Of a DNA stretch of 64,000 nt, positions 59,587-59,800 are shown in pieces; the stretch's first letter is position 1; each line of letters begins with the position of its first letter. The notes beneath the pieces are model-generated. The model saw nothing but the letters and a program-made list of their open reading frames with translations, did not search any database and was not told the origin of the DNA. The stretch spans positions 62,001-126,000 of the forward strand of contig JACKKX010000001.1 of the NCBI GenBank assembly GCA_024236215.1, in the 5' to 3' direction. This DNA is from Novosphingobium sp. GTDB lineage: Bacteria > Pseudomonadota > Alphaproteobacteria > Sphingomonadales > Sphingomonadaceae. The translations under genes and the position numbers were made by a program.

Positions 59587-59610
59587 TTTCGTGCGTCGAA
59601 CCCCCTTAAG

Positions 59611-59619
59611 TTATCCACA
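59611..59619 (+). promoter_or_regulatory. Perfect DnaA box upstream of ccrM
   Basis: TTATCCACA matches the DnaA box consensus exactly, 25 bases before the ccrM start. In Caulobacter DnaA, CtrA and CcrM belong to one cell-cycle circuit, so DnaA could act here directly. It is the only clear box in the region. Confidence 0.6.
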
Positions 59620-59681
59620 GGGTGAGTCCTCAACAAGTCCGCGTCAAGCGCAAACTCCGCGAGAATCCTAGGGATTCGTGG

Positions 59682-59696
59682 TTAAGGAAGGGTCAA
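59682..59696 (+). promoter_or_regulatory. CtrA-like site upstream of ccrM
   Basis: TTAA-GGAAGGG-TCAA differs by one base from the CtrA full-site consensus TTAA-N7-TTAA. Caulobacter ccrM is activated by CtrA. The site is 96 bases before the ccrM start, inside the GANTC cluster. Confidence 0.45.
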
Positions 59697-59800
59697 CACG
59701 GGCGGAACGAAACGAGTCCCCCACAGCATGTGGAGTCTCGCCACCAACCGAGGACTCAACATCTGGTGGTGTGGCCGGGAGGACTCGGCGCGCGACTTTT

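Follow-up and report, generated by a model that had tools for sequence, protein, structure and literature searches.

Why should seven target sites of the GANTC methyltransferase CcrM be packed in front of the gene for the enzyme itself? In the window (the whole stretch of Novosphingobium DNA that was analyzed, 64,000 nucleotides long), the sites lie at 59624, 59663, 59673, 59714, 59733, 59753, and 59782 and span 163 bp, and the first-pass annotation had correctly placed them directly before ccrM, in the gap between this gene and rnhB (Table 1). It had put the chance expectation at about 0.5 sites. The measured intergenic density, which was obtained with a crude open reading frame mask that wrongly covers the ccrM gap, is 2.22 per kb and corresponds to 0.48 sites in 214 bp. 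The Poisson probability of at least seven sites in the gap is ~7e-7, before correction for the number of places searched. The ccrM gap is missing from the intergenic list produced by the mask because a spurious 286-aa open frame (window 59678-60538, forward strand), antisense to rnhB and extending over the ccrM regulatory region, was masked as coding. GANTC is scarce in this DNA, with 97 sites in the window versus 260 expected from shuffles and a genome density of 1.34 per kb, measured over 1,264,000 bases (41% of the 3.08-Mb genome). The annotation had named similar densities in other regions as the observation that would speak against a special role, and none was found in these 1.264 Mb; the ccrM gap has seven sites per 163 bp and the next densest places, three in number, have five. 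One of these three is located within a 2015-aa open frame. Two looser groupings were also seen: five GANTC sites in 240 bp within a 517-aa open frame (window 7698-7937), and four sites in 163 bp together with TTGCACCGACGCGAATCGCCGGATTC, outside the long frames listed (G000:C1:647758-647920) and near an open frame that looks like mutM.

Table 1. Features of the region upstream of ccrM (window coordinates)
Feature	Position	Strand	Basis or remark
ccrM, GANTC adenine methyltransferase, 377 aa	58453..59586	-	NF050803 match
DnaA-box-like TTATCCACA	59611..59619	+	adjoins predicted start site
Putative -10 CACCCT (CAnnnT)	59619..59624	-	17 bp from -35; sequence, pattern in relatives
GANTC overlapping putative -10	59624..59628	.	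its last base is the first base of the -10
Putative -35 TTGACG of core promoter	59642..59647	-	alignment; family and class conservation
Mid element GAATCCTAGGGATTC	59663..59677	.	palindromic pair of GANTC 10 bp apart
CtrA-like half site TTAACCAC	59678..59685	-	read from sequence
Distal module, 82 bp, modelled as R1	59705..59786	-	82-bp dyad in alignment
Conserved block GAACGAAACGAGTCC	59705..59719	+	contains GANTC 59714; alignment
NrdR-type box 2 (predicted), ACTCCACATGCTGTGG	59721..59736	-	inner arm overlaps GANTC 59733-59737
Spacer between boxes, 17 bp	59737..59753	.	
NrdR-type box 1 (predicted), CCACCAGATGTTGAGT	59754..59769	-	inner arm overlaps GANTC 59753-59757
Outermost GANTC	59782..59786	.	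usually 29-30 bp from the box 1 site in relatives
rnhB, upstream neighbor of ccrM	59801..60487	-	other neighbors in some relatives

The ccrM product matches the NF050803 model with E=6.8e-181 and 600.8 bits, a score lower than the model cut-off of 830. Conservation of its upstream region was followed in 170 loci of the family, comprising the 30 top matches from a set of 199 genomes, the 80 best-ranked among 570 confirmed named records, 40 more divergent loci, and 20 fetched later, 9 of which were picked since nrdR or the distal module seemed to be missing. Some of these loci are near copies of one another, so the locus counts are not independent. The first 150 family loci have 3-13 GANTC sites upstream of ccrM, with a median of seven. 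In 110 loci (the 30 genome matches and the best 80 of 570 records), the 260 bp before ccrM contain 26 sites per kb versus 1.1 elsewhere, and the sequence is GAGTC or GACTC at 603 of 745 array sites versus 181 of 708 sites elsewhere. Among the 150 family loci, the array is also kept by those with rnhB at a distance of 0.9-2.7 kb or not detected in the stretch covered, which indicates that it goes with ccrM and not with the upstream neighbor; dependence of the array on rnhB is thereby ruled out. The assignment of the sites to the regulation of ccrM is supported by their presence in 150 family loci and by a proximal GANTC core that 23 of 40 outgroup loci (other families of the class) share. The related claim that relatives keep the cluster stood for the 150 family loci and failed in five genomes from which nrdR is missing, where ccrM is kept and the stretch contains only 2-4 sites. 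An unusual arrangement was seen in Blastomonas marina (L105, 3001-4682), where the ccrM match extends over 1682 bases instead of the usual ~1107, hinting at an insertion, and where the core GANTC sites upstream of ccrM are lost and the distal ones retained.

Alignment of the family loci divided the sites into a promoter-proximal core and a separate distal dyad, which is not the single, homogeneous, denser version of a feedback cluster that had been envisaged. The core has the family consensus CTTGACgcGGAnTCcN5GGACTCA. Read as a putative promoter (-35 TTGAC, 17-bp spacer, -10 CAnnnT), it carries GANTC in the spacer and at the -10, where the second GANTC and the -10 share one base. Its first GANTC is degenerate in the window (GGACTT) and intact in near relatives such as L031. 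Shortened to TTGAC-N12..15-GANTCA, the pattern matched 136 of the 150 family loci and, among the 40 outgroup loci (the best-matching of the class, with G199, G205, G218, and G290 skipped), 23. In the organism's own genome it was found three times (both strands of 1.264 Mb). Elsewhere in the same 1.264 Mb, double-GANTC cores gave four loose matches, at least one of them within an open reading frame. In the window, a GANTC site overlaps the -10 of a putative TTGAC-17-CAnnnT promoter and gcrA is present in the genome; the core is thus a putative sigma70 promoter fit for reading by GcrA or for direct sensitivity to methylation. Similar arrangements are known from the methylation-responsive ctrA P1, ftsZ, and mipZ promoters of Caulobacter, where GANTC lies near or between the -35 and -10 (PMC4287350, PMC3973325). 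Unlike those promoters, the ccrM region examined here has up to two sites per core and a separate operator with more.

Further elements flank the core. The DnaA-box-like word TTATCCACA has counterparts upstream of ccrM in 73 of 110 close family loci and in 4 of 40 more distant ones. In six loci (L002, L037, L039, L041, L042, and L058) a DnaA-box-like TGTGGATAA is found ~16 bp farther upstream, at the usual position of the second core GANTC, and the box and the methylation site seem to have swapped places. Pairs like GAATCCTAGGGATTC occur in several Novosphingobium-like loci. The half site TTAACCAC is CtrA-like, and CtrA-like motifs are present in 38 of the 110 closer family loci and 13 of the 40 more distant ones (51 of 150). 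In an earlier comparative study, control of ccrM by DnaA was predicted mainly where ccrM lacks CtrA sites, and no conclusion was drawn there from GANTC counts (PMC2877005).

The distal module was represented by a model (R1) built from 46 sequences. A match at E 0.1 or better was obtained in 34 of 39 family genomes, the genomes without one being G006, G010, G013, G019, and G024, and in all 20 matched genomes with a known ccrM position, the top match is located immediately before this gene. In the organism's own genome, a search with R1 that scored 150 of 542 first-look candidates hit the ccrM site once, plus the reverse complement of that site, and the module was accordingly rejected as a general genome motif. 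The dyads within it are reminiscent of a known kind of operator. NrdR, a Zn-ribbon/ATP-cone repressor, senses the cell's supply of DNA building blocks and binds pairs of boxes when carrying dATP and ATP. Its box consensus is acaCwAtATaTwGtgt, a 16-bp palindrome. In an initial scan with this consensus and weights of our own choosing, the two ccrM boxes scored 13.0 and 11.5 of 16, and the ccrM region provided the best single box of 464 kb. The pair scored 24.5, and the sole other pair of at least 22 in the 464 kb was a shifted reading of the same site. By the same measure, 147 of the 150 family loci and 16 of the 40 from the outgroup exceeded the 99th percentile of shuffles, which preserved base composition only.

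The scan was repeated with a matrix derived from the nrdA promoters of 30 family genomes, of which 25 were used (pair score of at least 21) and 5 dropped. Because it was seeded with the consensus of the first scan, this matrix is not wholly independent. It ranked the ccrM pair first in 1.264 Mb, with 22.3 versus 18.2 for the next separate place. Of the 150 family loci, 144 passed, as did 14 of the 40 from the outgroup; taken as a single box, ccrM box 1 was second in 464 kb (13.8 versus 14.4). An operator was found in 155 of 170 family loci, with a spacer of 17 bp in 132, 16 bp in 21, and 15 bp in 2 when the search was limited to 15-17 bp. A wider search (14-17 bp) gave 17 bp in 123, 16 bp in 24, 15 bp in 2, and 14 bp in 1 of 150 loci. 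The window itself has two 16-bp palindromic boxes separated by 17 bp, within the 14-17 bp that published NrdR proteins accept (PMC12051234). The nrdA gene of the same genome has a box pair with the same 17-bp spacer, and the genome encodes nrdR (G000:C2:741488-741910). Some nrdA loci of nrdR-bearing genomes lack a clear pair (e.g., G036). From this match in box sequence and geometry, the distal module is predicted to be a tandem NrdR operator.

The two boxes are also where CcrM sites are built in. The inner arm is a GANTC in 140 of 155 operators for box 1 and in 126 of 155 for box 2, and the outer arms are GANTC in none of the 155 for either box. Each inner-arm GANTC costs a letter of the consensus: among the 155 operators, 145 have A at position 14 of box 1 and 136 have T at position 3 of box 2. 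The mirror positions in the outer arms have the consensus letter in 144 operators (T at position 14 of box 2) and in 80 (A at position 3 of box 1). The letter by which the inner arms deviate from the NrdR consensus is the one that creates GANTC, which means that CcrM can methylate the predicted operator of its own gene. At nrdA, boxes overlap GANTC in 16 of 54 cases; in 14 of these, the overlap falls on the first box, in its left arm. Several nrdA promoters (among L247-L266) have a double-GANTC core of the form TTG..-GANTC-N5/6-GATTCAnTATCTAGTGG, with an NrdR box over the putative -10.

If the boxes serve NrdR, they should be missing where nrdR has been lost. No nrdR match (TIGR00244) was found in 12 of 199 family genomes, 8 of which were compared at ccrM. 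Five of the eight, from two genera (G006, G100, and G162; G019 and G105), have a completeness of 99-100%. In all five, both boxes and the distal GANTC at ccrM are gone, and ccrM and the TTGAC double-GANTC core are retained, an outcome at odds with the view of the sites as one cluster. The other three kept the boxes though nrdR was not found (G018, 85% complete; G025, 96%; G082, 66%); nrdR may lie in their missing sequence, yet they count against the association. Boxes are present in 74 of 82 nrdR-bearing genomes. The remaining eight fall under the threshold, four with a degenerate pair (G088, G195, G128, and G086) and four with no pair (G094, G013, G010, and G126). Over all 90 genomes, the association gave a Fisher p of 0.0013, not corrected for descent. 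Omission of G010 and of the three nrdR-less genomes that are <99% complete gave 2e-5, with the nrdR-bearing side otherwise unfiltered and descent again uncorrected. The nrdA boxes are also missing in both nrdR-less genomes that were checked (G006 and G019). Among nrdR-bearing genomes, G013 retains the pair at nrdA and lacks it at ccrM, and R1 also fails in G010, G013, and G024.

The number of independent losses was judged from a tree of 50 CcrM rows. Loss of nrdR takes two changes in the best tree and over the bootstrap range, and the strongly supported branches force only one; the near-complete genomes without nrdR fall in only two clades, which may share a single origin. The nrdR-bearing G126, which has no pair at ccrM, groups with G019 and G105 (95/73); the loss of boxes in that lineage may therefore have preceded the loss of the gene. 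Across the class, nrdR was found in 96 of 115 genomes, and among the 40 outgroup genomes compared upstream of ccrM only G296 (84% complete) was without a match, yet it has a box. A class-wide comparison of nrdR presence with boxes has no power.

Collectively, these sequence comparisons suggest that the cluster is the control region of ccrM, in which a GANTC-containing promoter core is joined to an upstream tandem NrdR operator with built-in CcrM sites, and we give this reading a probability of roughly three in four. In the original proposal, the only role of the seven sites would be to make ccrM transcription follow GANTC methylation, by way of either GcrA or methylation of the promoter, as a dense relative of the Caulobacter arrangement. 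In its favor, the proximal core is conserved (in 136 of the 150 family loci and 23 of the 40 from the outgroup), gcrA is present, and in Caulobacter methylation most probably acts on ccrM itself (PMC3973325). This proposal is nevertheless unlikely, since distal conservation includes letters outside GANTC (CACACC, AT..T, TGTG, and TTTCGTTC) and since the distal module fits the pattern of NrdR operators and has disappeared from five near-complete genomes that lack nrdR but retain the GANTC core. Only slightly less probable is use of the distal module by another dimeric regulator with NrdR-like boxes, or by MucR or CtrA. CtrA-like words do occur in 51 of 150 loci, and MucR, as well as CtrA in a synthetic promoter, can shield GANTC (PMC5172544), but the spacer, the palindrome, and the joint absence with nrdR and the nrdA boxes fit NrdR specifically.

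Other readings of the array are more doubtful still. The raw spacings between neighboring GANTC sites peak at 9-11, 18-21, and 28-31 bp in 150 family loci, which is what an array phased on one helix face for a SeqA-like reader of hemimethylated GANTC might look like. No such reader is known in the class, part of the spacings is accounted for by box geometry alone, and genera without nrdR lack the module although they retain ccrM, leaving this explanation improbable. An RNA hairpin in the ccrM leader would explain why the module matches its own reverse complement (26 bits); covariation was 0.085 versus 0.088 in shuffles, with 323 of 500 shuffles as high, so compensatory changes expected of a structured leader were not seen and we regard the hairpin as very improbable. 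Much the same holds for a part of the replication origin. The DnaA-box-like TTATCCACA would suit an origin, but it is the single such box, there is no clear GC-skew switch in the surrounding 464 kb, and the array accompanies ccrM and not its upstream neighbor; oriC was set aside on these grounds.

The preferred reading, an NrdR operator upstream of a GANTC promoter, would make the cluster more than dense autoregulation: by its sequence it looks like a device that puts ccrM under control of the nucleotide pool, with an operator open to methylation by CcrM. At high dATP, NrdR loaded with ATP and dATP would bind the ccrM pair and lower transcription of ccrM together with that of nrdA, if it acts here as a repressor and not as an activator. 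After passage of the replication fork, the operator would be hemimethylated until CcrM is made, and NrdR and CcrM could compete for the GANTC bases of the inner arms, should methylation affect binding. Box 2 lies 73 bp from the putative -35, which is far for simple occlusion; repression by NrdR, activation, and action on an upstream promoter are all compatible with this distance. One sigma70 promoter candidate within the distal module, TTGAGT-20-CAATAT, is doubtful, with a spacer that is too long. More tentatively, and with clearly less confidence than we place in the operator, m6A in the boxes at ccrM, and at nrdA in part of the family, may change the affinity of NrdR, in which case fork passage, dATP level, and methylation state would act as a single circuit setting the timing of both dNTP synthesis and chromosome methylation.

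The arrangement has known parallels. The ccrM pair resembles the NrdR operators of ribonucleotide reductase genes in having tandem 16-bp palindromic boxes, 17 bp apart as in the organism's own nrdA, and differs from them in that the target is a DNA methyltransferase gene, the boxes lie far upstream of the putative promoter, and the inner arms are GANTC. NrdR has been described as appearing specific for ribonucleotide reductase (PMC12051234). The topA gene of Pseudomonas aeruginosa is a non-reductase NrdR target that, like ccrM, belongs to DNA upkeep, but it has one box and was reported to be activated, whereas ccrM has a tandem pair (PMC4409342). The meeting of a DNA-binding protein and CcrM on the same GANTC is probably comparable to the competition between MucR and CcrM at hypomethylated, MucR-shielded sites (PMC5172544), with the difference that the protein would be NrdR and the gene ccrM itself, and that shielding is here a prediction. 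In the titles and abstract beginnings searched, no report of NrdR at ccrM was found, and a listing in RegPrecise, which was outside that search, is possible. The main text of PMC5343134 does not name ccrM, which may be listed in its supplements.

A predicted NrdR switch that contains two CcrM sites implies that supply and DNA marking may be linked. If NrdR also governs ccrM, the cell would make its cell-cycle methyltransferase in amounts dictated directly by the supply of DNA building blocks, and that enzyme could in turn mark the operator of its own gene. Nucleotide pools, replication, and epigenetic state would then be linked in Sphingomonadales, and perhaps the same holds for other alphaproteobacteria, given that 14-16 of 40 outgroup loci passed the two box-pair scans. 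Near-NrdR boxes such as ACACAATATCTTGTGT were noted upstream of ccrM in L195, L199, L178, L184, and L205, which belong to other families of the class.
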